Below are positions 7,053 through 15,431 of a stretch of DNA of 64,000 nt, piece by piece. The notes beneath the pieces are model-generated. The model searched no databases. It saw only the letters and a program-made list of their open reading frames with translations, and had not been told where the DNA came from. The DNA lies in NCBI GenBank assembly GCA_030272585.1, contig BSYQ01000002.1, positions 6,324,001-6,388,000 of the forward strand, in the 5' to 3' direction. A program made the translations under genes and the position numbers. Source of the stretch: Bryopsis sp. KO-2023 (Eukaryota > Chlorophyta > Ulvophyceae > Bryopsidales > Bryopsidaceae). Positions within the stretch are counted from its first letter, which is position 1; each line of letters opens with the position of its first letter.

Positions 7053-7059
7053 AGCAAGC

Positions 7060-7417
7060 GAGTTATCTGACGGGGCTAAAATTGGGGGGAGGAGCTCCCA
7101 CGTTGTGACCTAAAATCCGGGGGAGGACACAGTGACGGCACATCCCATTTGTCCGACCAACCGCAACGCCTCCATGTCGCACCTGAACGCGAATCCCAAA
7201 ACAGCTCCAGCATCGCAGCTCCCCCATCGCTGCCTGGCCCTCACACTGTTGCGACGCGACAGCCCTCTCTGAACCGAGGATTCGAGCGTCGAGCCAAGCC
7301 CCCCCTCACAGTCCTGCAGCAGCCAAGTCGCGGTGGGTGGAACTGTTGTTGGCGTATAGACGCCCTGCAAAGTCAGAGAGCGCGGTCGTTCAGCGTTTCT
7401 GCTGGGGGGTTCGATTC

Positions 7418-7445
<28 letters not shown>
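7060..7445 (+). repeat. Left terminal inverted repeat of the KDZ element
   Basis: It pairs with 14635-15026. The first part is G-rich (GGGGAGGAGCTCCC, GGGGGAGGAC) and the last part is a (TC)n microsatellite (7420-7450). A tRNA-like segment sits inside: an A-box-like TGGCGTATAGACG from about 7350 and a good B box GGTTCGATTCC at 7408-7418. Beyond the repeat the two ends stay alike only around the acceptor-like CTTACAG/TTTACAG before each start codon. Confidence 0.85.
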
Positions 7446-7450
<5 letters not shown>

Positions 7451-7495
7451 GGCTCACGTGGGACTGGCGGCGTTTTTTTGTCTGCTTACAGAGTT

Positions 7496-10267
7496 ATGGG
7501 GAAGCGAAAGGCAAAAAGCAGGCCTTCATCTCTTCTTTATAATGCAGAAACAGGAGAGGTTGAAACGATGTCTGTTGGCCCTTTGGAGGACACGAAACGT
7601 GGAAGAGGTCGTGAGGGACCTTCGAGCGTTTCTGAAGCCCCTTGTTCGGAACTTGATGAGGGAGGGATGGTCATGGGAGGTGGAGAGGAAGGGAACTTTG
7701 CAGACTTACTCAGGAATCAGAAAAATTGTCCTTTAGTTTTCAAAGATAACTCCAAATCACTCTTGATATTCTGTGTACCTGCTTTGGGTCCAGGGGGATT
7801 ATCGACAAGTACTTTTCAGTTCACTGGGATTCGAATGGTACACTCCCGCCTAGTGGTTTGGTGTACCTGTGGGAATGCTGACGAGTATGGTGTCCAACTT
7901 TTTAGTGGGGATCATCTTTATAGTGAAGAGTTGGACAATGCACCAGTTCGTCATTGTGAATGTGGGAAAGCAGTGATTTCCGCGTTGTCTTTGGAGACTA
8001 CGTTCTTTTCTTTCTTGGATTCGGCAAGGTGTACGGCAGCAGAGTACCCTAATGGTGTTATAGGAAATGGCTTAGTTATTGGAGGGAAAGAATACCTAGC
8101 TGTTCGGGAAAAGAAGGGGACATGGGGACTTATTGAGAATTACAAGGAGTCCCCACAAAGACCCAAATGTCTAACTTGTGTTCGTCACAAATATTTTTGC
8201 CCTCATGTGGCAACCTTGCAGCACACCCCTCAGCAAGTGAAGCTTAGCGATGAAGAATTTACAGAAAAATTATGGAGATTTTTGGATCCTTCAACGGAGC
8301 AGCGACGTAGGACATGTATCAGCCATGCGGATATTCCAGAAGAGCCTATTGGGCTACGACCAATACAGGATCGGTTACAGGGGAAAATAGGACTTGAAAC
8401 AAGGTGTGGTCACAACAATACCGAGTGTTCGAACTGTTCTTCAACGTGCGTGAAGAAAATTGATGTCAAGGAGTGCATAATTTTTGGGTCGACCACATTC
8501 ACGGGTGGGATTACATGGACGGTACAGTGCGACGATTGTTTGCACAGTTTGAGTTATGATGGCTCAAAGGATTGCATACTGAATTTGAATAACAAGTTCT
8601 TATATTGCTGGAGCTTGTTCTACCAGTACACTCAAGAGATGATTTCAAATCAGAATAGAACTTTTCATGGCTTTTGGAGCGATCTGTGTTACAAGTACAA
8701 AATTTCGGGATGTGATATTTCCGATCTAGGTTATTCTGCTGGCCACCTTCGTGATTGTTTCCAGTTAGCATGGTTTGAATTCATAGGCTTGCAAAAAATA
8801 GATTATAGTCAAGGTTTTTCGTGTTGTTCAGCCCCTGTCGTTACCGCAGATGGGTTGATGCTTGGGTACATGAGCAGAAAAGCAAATTTGAGTTGCTTGT
8901 GGGGCTCAGACGAAAAAGATCCACCAGTTTTGGGGTCAAAGTTCCATGATCGAGTGCTTGTTAAGAAAAAAGCATTGAGGGCTAATTTGTTAGCATATGC
9001 TGATGGGAAAAATGGGGGTGGATTAACAGTAGGAGAGCACAAAGCAATGTTGGAAAAAAATGATGAAGAAGGAATAGGTTTTCTGAACAGTTTTTGTCAA
9101 CGATCGGTGATGGTGGAAGGTCGTCTGTTTTGTGTCGATGAACTCCGACCTTTGCTGTTCAATTTAGGTACAAGTGCACCTATGTGCCGTTTAGTTCCTC
9201 CAGTAACCATCAATATTATCAGGGGTATAGTGTCGAAGGAAGATTTTTCCATTAGAATGGAAGATGAAAGGGTACTTATCGAACATGCACCAGTCCTTCA
9301 TGAAATTTTATTGAGCATGAAAACATTTTTTGCTGGTGCATATGCAAAAGACATTTTTTTGTTGCTGAGCGCATTATGTGATACATCGGAGAGTTGTTTC
9401 CCTTCAAGTCATGAAGAGGTGGGGAATCAGGGGGTACTTGAGAATGAGACCACATTCTTACGCACGGGTCAGTTCTTCGGCAAATATCACAATATCAAAA
9501 GAAGACTAAGGAACTACTGTGCGGACTCCCGAAGGCAAGGAGAGGAAATTTGCACAAAACACGCATATGTTTCGAGACAATTGACATCTGGTACGTTTGA
9601 TTTTCGTGGAAAAAGCATTTCATTACATATGTGTATATATTGTGATTAAATCTAAGGAGATGTAAATCTGTCTTCGCTCTTGATTTTTAAATTTACACGA
9701 TTTGCCCAGGGACATATATTCTTTGGTGTCTTGAGCACGAGGAAGCGATTGGCTTCATTGTAATGGCGAATGCGGAAAGTCCAAGAACAGCTTTCGAAGC
9801 GTTGTATTGTAGATGGGATCCGAATATCTTACGTGGTAAGAAGATTTTTTTCATTATTTTGAAGTGGGTACGAAGTATTTGTTATTGAATAATTTTCTGT
9901 TGCAATTATATTGTGTGATATAAATTAATCTAATTCGTATGTTGTTTTAGGTTTCTGTTACGATAATGCTTGTAACACGGAACAATACACCTTGAATAGA
10001 GAACCTCTCTTCTCTAAAAACATCCGATGGATGATTGATTCTCTCCATGTCAGAGGTCACAAAAATTGCTGCACCGCGTACGAAAGTGGAAAATTTTTAG
10101 ACATGAAAAATTCAAGCCTTGCCGAACAACAAAATTCTAAGTTGGGAAACATTAAAACTCAATCGATTTTTATGACACAGTTTCATTTCTTATTGTATGT
10201 TCGCCATTTTTTATATTTCTTGAATAAACAAAAAAGGGAAAAAAAGTTGGCAAGGCAGAATGGGTAG
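7496..10267 (+). CDS. KDZ-superfamily transposase, three exons, 845 aa
   Basis: Exons are 7496-9590, 9710-9835 and 9951-10267, giving an uninterrupted 845-codon frame. Donors GTACGT and GTAAGA and acceptors TTGCCCAG and TGTTTTAG fit in phase. The start is the ATG right after the acceptor-like TTACAG at 7486-7491. Cys/His clusters come first: WCTCGN and HCECG pairs, a SWIM-like C-x2-C-x2-H-x3-CPH at about 225-240, and C-x2-C pairs at about 305-350 resembling the CxC clusters linked to KDZ transposases. The catalytic core follows: WCLEHEEAIGF, AESPRTAFEALY (about 716-728), YDNACN (about 744-749, likely catalytic Asp), an H/C pair after VRGHKNC, and SSLAEQQNSKL (about 797, likely catalytic Glu). 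The first catalytic Asp was not assigned. It would excise and insert the element. An AATAAA signal is at 10352-10357. The family call is from recognised motifs; the exon structure is predicted. Confidence 0.82.
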
Positions 10268-10351
10268 TTTTTTTGTGACAATCGGGAAGGAAATTGTAAA
10301 CATGTTTGTTGTTGTTATTCTTGTATTGTGTTGAATTGGGCATCATGTTGT

Positions 10352-10357
10352 AATAAA
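10352..10357 (+). terminator. Candidate polyadenylation signal of the transposase gene
   Basis: A canonical AATAAA lies 85 bp after the transposase stop codon, in a T-rich 3' context. No competing signal is closer. It is assigned by position only. Confidence 0.5.
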
Positions 10358-12926
10358 TCATAATGTCTTCAAGGTCTACATCGTGACCTATTTTTTTTAA
10401 TGAGTTTTTTTCTTCTTTCATTTAAAAAAAAAACAAAAGAAAGGATTGTTCAGAAGATTTCAAAAACAAAAGAAAGGTGTACAAATTTCATGAAGTTTCT
10501 AATATGGATGATAGTTTGCAAGCATAAGTCCCTTCCACAAGTGTGCCATCAACATTGGATCTAATCCTTTTATATACATCGCTGGAACGGTGCAGTGGGA
10601 TTCAGTCACAGTCCCAAGGGTTACTCGCTGGCTGAGGCTGGAGCGGTGGTCTTAAGAATTGTGTCTATCCATCCCACACAAACTGGAATTCCAATTGTTC
10701 GAACAGCTGCCAATGATCCTGTAGGCCGTCAGGCAAGCGATATAACCCAGGGTGAGAATAACCCACGGATAATCCTGCAAACGAAGAGAATATATTCGTT
10801 GAGCCGCTGGCGAGTACTCTGCTTGTACGTCTCATTGTGTAACTCTTTTCTGAACAAGAAATCATGAGGGAGGAGACTACAAAAAAAAAAGGTGAAACAG
10901 AAACAGTGGTGGTCGCTTCAGTCAACGACAACAAAGTAAGGCGTCCTTGCAATTGCCGAGGGAGATGGGGCTGGGTGTTTCCTTGTTTCGTTGGTTTCTT
11001 GATGAGTGATTTGTTTCTTGGTCTTTCCCTTGGTTGGGTAATTTGTGGAGGGCAGGAGTTGGCTGGGTTTGGCTGGGTCGATCCTTTCTTTCGTGCTTGG
11101 TATTATTGAACAAATCGGCTTTTGGACGTATCAAGAGACAAAGCTCAGCAAGAAAGAAGCCGTCTTAAGTATCGAGGAGCTCTCTTCGAGACTCCCTCTC
11201 GATCAAGACGGCGGTACATGTATCCTTAGTGAGATGTTTTCATCTCTGGTGCTATTCTTGTCCCGATGTGGCATTCCTTCTGTCTTGTTGGGTCAAGAAG
11301 GGGTGGTTCTCCTGATTGTATTCTTTCAAAAATCCGCACATTGGGTCTTGAATCATTGGTCCACACCTCAGCAACTGCAAAGTCTGTAATGGAATCTTTG
11401 TGTATGGCAGCGAATATTTGACTGGCAGAAGAGCAAGGATTTCTGGCTGCTGATTGTTATGTATCTGCAGGCTCTGTACTTTTGGAGGGAGTGATCAATG
11501 CAAATTTCATCCATCGTTCCATATAGATATACAAATGAGGAAGCTCCCATTCCTTTTGCTCCTCTACTGTTCCTTTTCATCCACCCAGAATTTCGGTAAA
11601 AAACACCTTCACTGTCCATCCTTATCTGATTCCCCACCCAGAATTTCGGTAAAAAACACCTTCACTGTCCATCCTTATCTGATTCCCCACCCAGAATTTC
11701 GGGAAAAAACACCTCCACTGTCCATCCTTATCCAAAAATATACATTCTTCAGAAAGAAAAACCACCCTTGGAGAATCTTATCTATGCAAAAACCAAGACA
11801 AACAAATCCAAAAAACGGTCCCAAAATGTATCAAAACATTTGAGAGCTTTTATTAAGCAACACACATCAAACATAAAGCAGAGCTAATCATGATCTCGAT
11901 ATGCATGTGTGTTTGTCCAGCATATTTCAGTAGCATGATTAATCAAAAGAAAGCGAATTCCCTGAACATGGAGCTTATATGTTTCCTTTGAAAATCATTC
12001 TCCGATTCTGGTTCAATGAAGATACATTGGAATTTGCAGTCGGGATGCCATTCCTCTGCAGAAGTTGTAGAAGAATTGAAAAATTGGATTTCTTCAGGTT
12101 CCCCTCAGCGAAGCGTTCAGTCTGGGTGGCTTTTGTGGTGAAGCACTGAAACCATTCACAGGGGGAATCTCTGAAACTGAAGAAAAGCTATCATGCTTTC
12201 CACTTTGATCACATAACCAAACATATGTTTGATACAATTCATTGCATCAATTCTTATCGCACACTGTGAAAACTTGCTTGCTTGAAATTCCATAAAAGAA
12301 AATTATCACATCACTTATTTAGTTTCTGAATGTTCTGGTTTCACGGCTATAGATGCGTTCAAAAAGCATTGATAATTACCTTGTTCCGGAGGCGGCTGAA
12401 AGTCGTGCTCTTTAGGAGTTTTCTTATCGCAAGTATCAAGTAACACCGTGTTTATTGGTGTTGTTTTTTCCTTAGAACAGAGAGGTTTTCTGTGCGAATA
12501 AAGTGCACTTGTGGAGTGCAGAAAGAGGATGAATAAATAGGAAAATAGATGCATAGAAACATGTCTACATGCTCTGAATTAGAAAGGTTGGCTTGGAGCG
12601 ATATTATTACGTGAACTCTTGGACTGAACTGATGTTTTGCCAAGCGACACAACAATCACAGGGTCAGTGTGTCGACGCAATGCCATCCACACAGAAAGTA
12701 ACTTGCCAATCCCTCCTTTCTTGTTTCAGGGATTCAAATTGCCCCCATTTCATTGAAAAAACGCTGAAAGAGCACAAGAAAAGCCAAGATTTCCTACTAT
12801 GCCCACAGCCACTTTTTCTAGTTATACGTACCAGCTTCATCCAAGGGCAATTGGAAACCCAATGTCCATCGTCCAGTAGGTAAAAATGGTGAAGTGGAAA
12901 GATCAATAAAATTCACCTTAAGCATT
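10358..12926. other. KDZ element interior, possible minus-strand exons, no gene resolved
   Basis: Between the two recognised genes the minus strand has exon-like pieces with plausible splice sites. One lies near 12400-12480, ending at AACAAG/GTAATT. One lies near 12835-12880, ending at AAGCTG/GTACGT, with a GHWVSNCP segment reminiscent of half a zinc knuckle. One near 10700-10890 has hydrophobic segments. Their phases do not join into one frame that I can trust, so a third gene is possible but unproven. The interval also contains the 53-bp minisatellite at 11581-11729. Confidence 0.35.
11581..11729. repeat. 53-bp tandem repeat, about 2.8 copies
   Basis: Units start at 11581, 11634 and 11687 with CCACCCAGAATTTCGG and carry a conserved CACTGTCCATCCTTATC tail. 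Copies are nearly identical. The period is not a multiple of three, which argues against a coding repeat. Confidence 0.85.
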
Positions 12927-14595
12927 TCAGAATGGAGCCCTCGGAAAACTGTTGAGTGAAGGATGATTCACTCCTGGCTGCGCATTCTCTTGTTGGAATA
13001 CCTCAACAGGGAAGCTGTTGAGTGTGTGATAATTCACTCCTGCCTGCGCATTCTCTTGTTGGGATGCCTCAACAGGGAAACTGTTGAGGGTTGGATGATT
13101 CACTCCTGCCTGCGCATTTTCTTGTTGGGATGCCTCAACAGGGTTCTCAGCAGGTGCTACTTCCAGCTCCCACAACTTCCTCAAGCGATTCCCACGATTC
13201 TTGAAGTCCTTGGAAATTCCCAACGATGATGCCACGCTGCCCCACTTTTTCTTCTCTGTCACCTGTCCAATGCAATAAAAATACCACTGTAAAGAAATTC
13301 TGGCAGTTTTTCGACATCTCCCGACAGGTCAGTCCATCTTTCTTGCAACCATTTTTTTTTCCCAATTCAGACAAAAAAACCCATACATGTACTACTGTTC
13401 AGCATTCAGTTTTAGATTTTATAAGTGAATTCTTCGGGCAACATTTTCTTTCTAGAGGGCTGGACATTTGACTCCTTCACTTCAGCAATTTGATTGTTGC
13501 TGCTACACAAGGCAAAGAAAACCGCCAAGAGAAACACAGCTCATGGAAGCGCGTTTCAGGCTGACCTAATAATTAACAACAAATGGATGGCATGCCTTGA
13601 TATGGCCTTCATGCCATATTATTCATCTACAAAAATTAAAAGCTAAGTCTTATCTACCAATTTTCTGAGGAATATAAGATCCGTGACAATTTTTGCTTTG
13701 TGTCAAAACTGTCAATGTCAAAATCACTATGCAAAGATAGCAAAACAGAGCTTTAACCTACCTCACCACCACCTCCAAGGTCCCTCACACAATTCGCCAA
13801 TTGTCCAAGGTGGACTACATCTCCATTCAATATTGTGGACGTCAAGGCTATGCCCTGTGCTTCCCAATAACCCTCAATTTCATCTTTAGCCTGTTGGTCT
13901 CGATGCTCAACGACTTTGTGGTGCGTATTAAGTCTTGATCTCTTGAGTTTTGGAAGATCGTCAGGGGAATACTGATCTAACAAAGATCTCACAATTAAAA
14001 TATCCTCCACTTTCAGAGTTTTGGAAATTGCAAGAGCATCATTCAACTCTTTTTTCGGAAAGTTTCTAACAATCCTCTCAAGCAACAGATCAACCCACAG
14101 CCCTTTCTCTGTCTTATCGCTGGCCCTCATATGCGAAGGAGAAGTATAAGGTACATTCTCAGGTCCCCAGTTGACTGGCCAGTCCCTTGTGGTTTTGTAG
14201 TCTGGGAGATTGTATCTCCTTTTCAAGGTTGCCATCCACGAAGAACAAATCGTTTTTTTGGTTAAAAACGACAAAGGACTCTCCTTGAAGCTTTTCCACT
14301 TCGTTTGGAAGGTCCGTTCCTTTGCGAACGCTGCATCAATAACTTCCTTTATCGAACTCAAAGTCGCCCCAGAGAAAAACTCGCGTAAAAACGAGTGAAC
14401 GAAAAGTTGAGGGTTTGGATTGTCGTGAGGGAACATCACCAGGGCCCCTATCGCCCCGCACTCCTTGAAGCATAGTTGCATCCTTGTCCGAATAATAACC
14501 ATATGGCGCTCCATTGCGGAAACCCTCGACTCCGGTTTCTCCAACAACTTGGCATCGTGCACAATCTGAGCGATTGGACGACGTTGGGAAGCCAT
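12927..14595 (-). CDS. ARID-domain protein of the KDZ element, two exons, 389 aa
   Basis: Exons run from 14595 to 13762 (278 codons) and from 13262 to 12927 (111 codons plus stop). The donor GAG/GTAGGT and an acceptor ending TTGGACAG join in phase 0. The ARID/BRIGHT DNA-binding fold is visible only across the junction: LGQLANCVRDLGGGGE at the end of exon 1, then VTEKKKWGSVASSLG and NRLRKLWELEV in exon 2, matching the ARID pattern of L..L...V...GG, then V...KKW..VA..LG, then a final helix. The N-terminal 230 residues are basic and helical, with a WPVNWGPENVPYTSP segment, and are not assigned. The C-terminus holds three 22-aa repeats. The start ATG has the same context as the transposase start. 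It is probably an accessory DNA-binding protein; that role is inferred. Confidence 0.75.
12949..13146 (-). repeat. 66-bp coding tandem repeat, three copies
   Basis: Units begin at 12949, 13015 and 13081 with CTGTTGAG and have an exact 66-bp spacing. On the minus strand each encodes 22 residues around ASQQENAQAGVN, forming the C-terminal tail of the ARID protein. A period that is a multiple of three with the frame kept open supports coding. Confidence 0.85.
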
Positions 14596-14634
14596 AACTC
14601 TGTAAACAAGAAGAAAACACGCCGCGAGCCTGAC

Positions 14635-15026
14635 GTAAACAGAGAGAGAGAAAGAGAGAGAGAGAGAGGAATCGAACCCCCCAGCAGAAACGCTGAACGA
14701 CCGCGCTCTCTGACTTTGCAGGGCGTCTATACGCCAACAACAGTTCCACCCACCGCGACTTGGCTGCTGCAGGACTGTGAGGGGGGGCTTGGCTCGACGC
14801 TCGAATCCTCGGTTCAGAGAGGGCTGTCGCGTCGCAACAGTGTGAGGGCCAGGCAGCGATGGGGGAGCTGCGATGCTGGAGCTGTTTTGGGATTCGCGTT
14901 CAGGTGCGACATGGAGGCGTTGCGGTTGGTCGGACAAATGGGATGTGCCGTCACTGTGTCCTCCCCCGGATTTTAGGTCACAACGTGGGAGCTCCTCCCC
15001 CCGATTTTAGCCCCATCAGATAACTC
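14635..15026 (-). repeat. Right terminal inverted repeat of the KDZ element
   Basis: This is the mirror of 7060-7445 with very few differences. The tRNA-like B box lies at 14668-14678 on the minus strand and the (GA)n tract at about 14640-14668. It leads to the ARID gene start at 14595. Confidence 0.85.
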
Positions 15027-15431
15027 AGCAAGCCAGCAAACAGGTAGACTCCCTAACGCCCCAGTGCGACATCGCGCCCACTCCCGACGTGGCGACTTTC
15101 CACGCCACTCCATTCGAGGAAACAAGCGATCGTCGAACCCGCTTCGCCAACACCTGTAAGTCGCGCACTCCTCCTGGCCGCAACCACACCTAATCCCTCC
15201 TCTTGAACAAACTCCAGCAAACGGGAGTGGCTGCGAGCATGGGCGCAGAAAAAAAAAACAGGAACTCGAAAAAAAACCGAGTACAAACTCTACCTCTCTC
15301 TCTTTCTCCAGAGAAAAAAAAAGCAAAACCAATTCACAGAAGGACAAAAAAAAAAGGGGGGAGAGCGTATTATGCTTATACCTGCGCCGACATCGCTACA
15401 ATCAAGTCCAGCCTTTGCCCAGCTCGCGCGG

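Follow-up and report, generated by a model that had tools for sequence, protein, structure and literature searches.

A transposase and ARID gene pair in KDZ-related transposons of the green alga Bryopsis: a candidate accessory factor for recognition of the element ends

What does a protein with an ARID DNA-binding domain do inside a transposon? The question is raised by a locus of Bryopsis sp. KO-2023, a green alga of the Bryopsidales whose genome amounts to 91 Mb in 28 contigs. The window, i.e., the whole 64,000-nucleotide stretch of DNA that was analysed (positions 6324001-6388000 of contig C2), contains at its positions 7060-15026 a complete transposon, in which two terminal inverted repeats (TIRs) enclose a transposase gene and a convergent ARID gene. 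The locus and its relatives offer a complete element, an open transposase, an intact ARID gene, target-site duplications (TSDs) of 7 bp and a recurrence of the gene pair. The reading favoured here, with a probability of about 0.52, is that of an autonomous cut-and-paste KDZ/CxC4 transposon, the ARID protein of which would be an accessory factor recognising subterminal repeats at the element ends.

The window element and its two genes

An earlier reading of the window from its letters (the sequence-only reading) had described a complete element with TIRs of about 385 bp and a 7-bp flanking direct repeat, and both descriptions hold: the TIRs measure 386 nt and are 99% complementary, with 4 mismatches, and the heptamer AGCAAGC occurs on both sides. 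The features of this copy, which belongs to a family named A, are distributed as follows (families B, C and F are introduced below).

7053..7059, no strand: left TSD, AGCAAGC, an exact 7-bp match to the right copy
7060..7445, + strand: left TIR, 386 nt, beginning with GAGTTATCTGAC, 4 mismatches to the right TIR
7078..7089, + strand: subterminal repeat 1, left, AAAATTGGGGGG, at base 19 from the end, the same position as in families B, C and F
7112..7123, + strand: subterminal repeat 2, left, AAAATCCGGGGG, at base 53 from the end
7496..9590, + strand: transposase exon 1, which holds CxC4 (residues 307-404 of 845)
9710..9835, + strand: transposase exon 2
9951..10267, + strand: transposase exon 3 and stop codon, the KDZ stretch lying mostly in exons 2-3
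12927..13262, - strand: ARID gene coding exon 2 and stop codon, with the rest of the ARID domain followed by a repeat-bearing tail
14595-13762, - strand: ARID gene coding exon 1 (834 nt), with an N-terminal region conserved among the families and the first part of the ARID domain
14641..15026, - strand: right TIR, 386 nt, the inverted-repeat match to the left TIR
14963..14974, - strand: subterminal repeat 2, right, AAAATCCGGGGG
14997..15008, - strand: subterminal repeat 1, right, AAAATCGGGGGG
15027..15033, no strand: right TSD, AGCAAGC, an exact 7-bp match to the left copy

The uninterrupted three-exon transposase that had been proposed is confirmed, the joins 9590/9710 and 9835/9951 yielding 845 residues with no internal stop; the same model was recovered by a splice-aware aligner for which the transposase protein itself served as guide. 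With respect to its domains, CxC4 (PF18717) reaches 31.0 bits in the Pfam search against a cut-off of 26.9, whereas KDZ (PF18758), over residues 697-788, remains sub-threshold with 18.4 bits against 26.6. The attribution to the KDZ type, a name reportedly due to Iyer et al. 2014, depends in the case of the window element on its relative B, the transposase of which passes both thresholds with 29.9 bits for KDZ and 45.3 bits for CxC4. The family C transposase, in which neither CxC4 nor KDZ was matched at E <= 10, is tied to those of A and B solely by 32-34% identity over approximately 800 residues. Residues D452 (ADG), D745 (YDNxC) and E799 (AEQ), a putative acidic catalytic triad, are invariant across the transposases of A, B, C and a further group, E. 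Throughout the genome, all seven CxC4 places among the matches listed exceed the cut-off, and an exon-by-exon search for KDZ gives sub-threshold matches at two places, each of them in a B copy. A protein search with the transposase, in which scoring was confined to the 8000 candidates with the most words in common, yielded two CxC4-bearing JGI proteins (E 3.4e-23 and 6.0e-8) and no Bryopsis protein.

The second gene, located on the opposite strand, consists of two coding exons joined at 13762/13262 in phase 0 by a GT-AG intron, as had been predicted, and encodes 389 residues to which the public annotation of Bryopsis sp. KO-2023 (BSKO_02756/BSKO_02058) is identical throughout. The prediction that the ARID domain appears upon joining of the exons is equally borne out, the spliced protein matching Pfam ARID with 35.4 bits (E 1.4e-8, cut-off 24.1) and neither exon 1 nor exon 2 alone giving any ARID match at E <= 10. 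ARID is the sole Pfam family listed for this protein and for each of its three relatives described below (families A to D). Their N-terminal region is conserved among all four families, yet corresponds to no Pfam family above cut-off; exon 1 alone gave one sub-threshold match, of 10.5 bits against 31.3, and the predicted structure of the ARID protein, with a mean predicted local distance difference test score (pLDDT) of 39.7, is too poor to classify this region. Among solved structures, a four-family profile retrieved 20 distinct Protein Data Bank (PDB) sequences at E <= 0.1, 13 of which at E <= 0.001, and all 20 are ARID proteins by name (JARID/KDM5, Jumonji, ARID1-3, SWI1/ADR6, SMARC-F or Dead ringer), headed by the demethylase Lid (2lm1, 5.9e-10). 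In protein searches by single sequence or by this profile, the latter scoring the 8000 candidates sharing most words, no relative from outside Bryopsis was returned, the matches being restricted to BSKO_02756/02058 and BSKO_06366. The C-terminal tail of the protein contains three 22-residue repeats, encoded by three 66-bp tandem repeats at 12943-13143.

The search for other copies that had been suggested revealed on contig C1 another complete element, which shares 99.875% identity with the window copy over 7970 columns (10 columns differ) and has an open transposase exon 1, an ARID exon 1 100% identical to that of the window copy and a 7-bp TSD of its own, CCAACTC. Such a near-identical copy with its own TSD speaks against the window element being a product of chance. 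To judge from its sequence, the window transposon is intact and recently mobile; relics or fragments of family A also occur on C2, C5, C7, C9 and C11.

Recurrence of the gene pair in diverged families

The convergent arrangement of a transposase and an ARID gene is encountered in three families, namely A in the window, B (L033 on C1) and C (L036 on C1). The TIRs of family B measure 732 bp with 99.9% identity and its layout is that of the window element; a second B copy, on C6, contains a 7.8-kb insertion between the two genes. Family C possesses the same two genes as A between TIRs of 261 bp (95.8%), and the public annotation lists its ARID protein as BSKO_06366, taken from a C5 copy which is split by insertions. 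A fourth ARID gene, D (L040 on C8), has its start 480 bp inward of a family F end. Identities between the transposases amount to 40.0% (A-B), 34.1% (A-C) and 32.2% (B-C), and those between the ARID proteins to 38.9, 24.3 and 21.3%, respectively, C being the most distant of the three families by both proteins. All four ARID proteins exceed the cut-off of 24.1 bits (A 35.4, B 41.0, D 32.2, C 30.0), all four gene models are stop-free, and an intron lies within the ARID domain at one and the same alignment place in each of them. The idea that the domain arises from an accidental joining of frames, to which the silence of both single exons lends some appearance, is thus refuted in practice by the three diverged relatives that rebuild it across an intron at the same place, together with the 389 identical residues of the public annotation.

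Its recurrence in anciently diverged relatives gives the ARID gene the appearance of a functional transposon component rather than of a stray host gene. The pair is present in each family with a structurally complete copy (A, B and C), which falls short of a demonstration that it is universal. In this respect, a genome search with the ARID family skipped the genes of A, B and D, since the intron splits their ARID domain, and left C below the cut-off, so that its silence elsewhere is weak evidence. A place on C5 (2795388-2798922) combines CxC4 (36 bits) with a KDZ-like C-terminal stretch approximately 3 kb downstream (39% to family C), and no ARID gene occurs near it among the matches listed.

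A disfavoured and very improbable explanation is that of a passenger, a functionless host ARID gene picked up by accident. Related elements do capture pieces of host genes, as illustrated by the WDR70-like fragment of family N, and broken or rearranged ARID genes occur in one B derivative and in three C derivatives. Against a mere passenger, the gene recurs with its orientation and its intron across families whose transposases are just 32-40% identical, and the models of A, B, C and D are free of stops. In addition, the only informative pair of copies differs less in the ARID coding sequence than in the ARID introns: between the C1 and C5 copies of family C, 2 of 1155 coding sites differ against 12 of 793 intron sites (Fisher p 0.0007; intron positions taken from a model fitted to BSKO_06366), by which a putative selection on the ARID gene in family C is supported. 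The B pair, with 0/990 differences in the ARID coding sequence and 0/455 in the intron, is too young to inform on selection.

The derivatives themselves are peculiar in structure. The B derivative at C4:5056471-5064595 (L046, L041) consists of two palindromic arms of 3.6 kb, each with the ARID half of the element; its ARID frames are broken and its TSD is CAAGTCC. The three C derivatives (C1:1459801, C8:1606263 and C10:3567184-3574191) are rearranged alike, the start of the transposase being joined to the terminal exons of the ARID gene, of which the initial exons are inverted. Family N consists of four 5.7-kb elements (L012-L015; two copies on C7, one each on C4 and C3), 99.1-99.98% alike in long aligned pieces, with TIRs of 1.3 kb (99.8-100%) whose outer 202 bp are 94-95% identical to the corresponding bases of the window TIRs. 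No transposase was detected in the four elements, which hold a WD40 gene fragment with WDR70 as its best solved match (1.6e-7). The two copies on C7 are only 20 bp apart.

Element ends and the role proposed for the ARID protein

The terminus GAGTYA, followed at base 19 by an A-run and a G-run, is common to A, B, C and F, and a second A-tract/G-tract repeat occurs about 34 bp further in, around bases 51-54, in the same four families. After merging of overlapping pattern hits, 4 of the 5 sites in A, 4 of the 5 in B and both sites in C are located at the ends. Raw hits number 7, 7 and 2 in A, B and C, compared to means of 0.36, 0.49 and 0.99 and highest counts of 4, 4 and 5 over 100 shuffles of each element, the counts of A and B exceeding all shuffles. 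Compared by BLAST, the TIRs match between A and F over bases 1-42 (E 0.004) and between B and F over bases 1-64 (E 0.002); no match at E <= 0.1 was obtained for A-B, A-C, B-C and C-F, the self-match controls being recovered. A genome-wide search with the end pattern gave 79 rows, some of them overlapping, against 49 with a reversed control, a raw count which proves nothing, and only recurring families with paired ends were taken from it.

According to the favoured reading, the transposase and its dedicated ARID protein would be transcribed convergently from the two TIRs, and the ARID protein would recognise, at either end, the paired subterminal A-tract/G-tract repeats (the first at base 19, the second about 34 bp deeper), thereby helping the transposase to find and pair the ends or to build the transposition complex; it could also act in trans on non-autonomous copies that keep only the ends. 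Binding to the subterminal repeats and assembly of the transposition complex is the most likely function suggested by these sequences. Two roles had been suggested by the sequence-only reading, and the conserved repeats would render one of them, end recognition, a more concrete proposal than the other, the steering of insertion, in which the ARID protein would anchor the integration complex at particular chromatin or DNA. ARID proteins do bind DNA, many of them within chromatin complexes, as such steering supposes; the 7-bp TSDs, judged by eye, have no common sequence, and in seven copies the GC content of the 200-bp flanks varies between 41 and 59% (the B flanks being of 51 and 67 bp only). 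Steering is considered improbable.

The main competitor, less probable than the favoured function, is that of an anti-silencing or self-regulatory factor which binds the TIR promoters of its own element to keep them active or to tune them. The start codons of the two genes lie 436 and 431 bp from the respective ends, about 50 bp inside the inner TIR borders. Since they stand just past near-identical TIRs, nearly the same sequence precedes both genes; the transposase and ARID genes would probably share a promoter, and one bound protein could control both. The closest solved ARID domains are of the chromatin type (JARID/KDM5). Comparable factors have been described elsewhere: the VANC proteins of Arabidopsis VANDAL elements are presented as sequence-specific and anti-silencing in the opening lines of the abstracts of PMC10398659 and PMC5735166, and TET/JBP, another chromatin-related accessory gene, is proposed in the relevant passages of PMC12730594 to regulate fungal transposons, KDZ elements included, as an anti-silencing type of factor. 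Conversely, the motif stands at fixed distances from the termini instead of being scattered in non-coding DNA, a distribution which suits end recognition better.

The resemblance to VANDAL and VANC, of the Mutator superfamily, lies in a transposon-encoded accessory protein, sequence-specific in VANC according to these abstract openings and predicted to bind DNA in Bryopsis. They differ in that anti-silencing is reported for VANC and is a rival reading for the Bryopsis protein, and in that the same opening lines of PMC10398659 and PMC5735166 mention no ARID. The transposase superfamilies are also unrelated. PIF/Harbinger with its Myb/SANT-like partner, En/Spm with TnpA and TnpD, and MuDR with mudrB are likewise two-gene cut-and-paste systems with a helper, which differ from the present elements in their transposases and helper domains. 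Proteins of the JARID1/KDM5 group resemble the Bryopsis proteins by the sequence profile of their ARID domain (best match Lid, 2lm1), the latter being without JmjC, PHD or any other KDM5 part.

Several observations weigh against end recognition by a dedicated ARID partner. No transposase was found in the 9.9-kb locus of D; no ARID gene was found, in the searches made, for transposase group E (C2), which is decayed, nor for group H (C5) among the matches listed in genome-wide exon-by-exon searches, and the pairing may thus not be obligatory. In the C1/C5 pair of family C, 35 of 822 transposase coding sites differ against 4 of 297 intron sites, alignment-edge noise included; this lack of stronger conservation in the transposase coding sequence weakens the selection argument. 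At the ends, the second repeat of family C is a weak variant (ATAATGGGGGG), the right terminus reads CAGTAA in C and GAATTA in D instead of GAGTYA, and the two hits of C fall within the shuffle range, so that the position of the motif, and not its count, constitutes the argument. The zinc clusters of the transposase may be the binder of the repeats in place of the ARID domain, and no ARID site of the form A-run plus G-run is known.

Some additional features of the ends and of the element deserve mention. B and F share an inner TIR piece of 66 bp (91%, E 2e-22; bases 160-225 of the L033 TIR and bases 432-497 of the L058 element) with weaker neighbouring matches, most of the remaining TIR sequence being unrelated except for the ends, and an exchange of modules between both families would explain this common piece. 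L058 (C3:6020000-6020790) is a 791-bp member of family F resembling a miniature inverted-repeat transposable element (MITE), and further paired F ends occur with a spacing of about 4.5 kb on C1, C4, C10 and C11 and of 10 kb on C12. The TIRs of A, C (L036) and F (L058) contain, at 277-349 bp from the terminus, a tRNA B-box-like sequence (RGTTCGANYC), placed at 7408 (+) and 14678 (-) in the window element, which was not found by this pattern in the family B TIR; sites with the same pattern near 869, 1066, 49925 and 50167 of the window look tRNA-derived by eye. On the window, ARAGORN reported 0 tRNA genes and Rfam, at gathering thresholds, 0 matches. Three 53-bp tandem repeats occupy the middle of the element (11581-11739), outside both genes, and a comparison of the TIR with the plasmid collection gave no near match.

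Place among KDZ elements and significance

Of the 16 copies inspected at their two ends (two of A, four of N, three of B, i.e., the C1 and C6 copies and the C4 derivative, one of C and six of F), 13 have an exact 7-bp TSD, as exemplified by GCATTTC for B and CAGAAAC for L058 (F), identical on both sides. The exceptions are one F copy with 6 of 7 matching bases, one F copy with none, and the C6 copy of B, which is without an outer right end. A TSD of 8 bp proved false in all five F pairs tested, three of which have exactly 7 bp.

In the passages of PMC12730594 devoted to these elements, Kyakuja is described with a TSD of 7 bp, and Zisupton and Dileera with 8 bp; the Kyakuja families have CA..TG termini, no TIRs and a TET/JBP gene, the chromatin-related accessory gene of fungal KDZ elements, and Zisupton possesses TIRs. 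On this description, the Bryopsis elements resemble Kyakuja in a transposase of probable KDZ type and their 7-bp TSD, and differ from it by their ARID protein, their GAGTYA termini and TIRs that measure 261-732 bp in the three families with both genes. With Zisupton and Dileera they have a KDZ kinship in common and, as in Zisupton, TIRs, and differ by a TSD of 7 bp instead of 8 bp. Kyakuja proper is ruled out by the GAGTYA termini and the 386-bp TIRs, and Zisupton or Dileera proper by the 7-bp TSD. The association of a 7-bp TSD with TIRs and GAGTYA accordingly fits none of the three KDZ lineages as these passages of PMC12730594 describe them. These sequences would best be read as a KDZ/CxC4 lineage whose ARID protein is an accessory factor dedicated to it. 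That this lineage, characterised by a 7-bp TSD, long TIRs and GAGTYA ends with paired subterminal repeats, is an undescribed one related to KDZ, in which ARID was taken over as an obligate subunit, sequence-specific and co-evolved with the transposase, for transposition or anti-silencing, is a proposition for which the chances seem evenly balanced.

The novelty of an ARID partner for KDZ elements, suggested by the sequence-only reading, may hold. The word ARID is absent from the main text of PMC12730594, and text searches of the open-licence PMC literature, several of which display their top matches or were dominated by other senses of the words, revealed no ARID-bearing transposon among the papers listed, a result by which priority is not established. 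The strictest of these searches, for an ARID domain together with a transposase and an inverted repeat, gave 0 papers.

With an intact element, a near-identical copy and short, well-delimited candidate sites, the helper role of the ARID protein is directly testable. A further use of the element could be as a tool for insertions in a giant-celled alga. Should the proposed role be true, a chromatin-type DNA-binding domain would have been turned into transposition machinery. Fungal KDZ elements are connected with chromatin control by their TET/JBP enzymes, and a green-algal lineage in which ARID takes that place, conserved across old splits between families, would indicate that the KDZ superfamily recruits partners of the chromatin type repeatedly.

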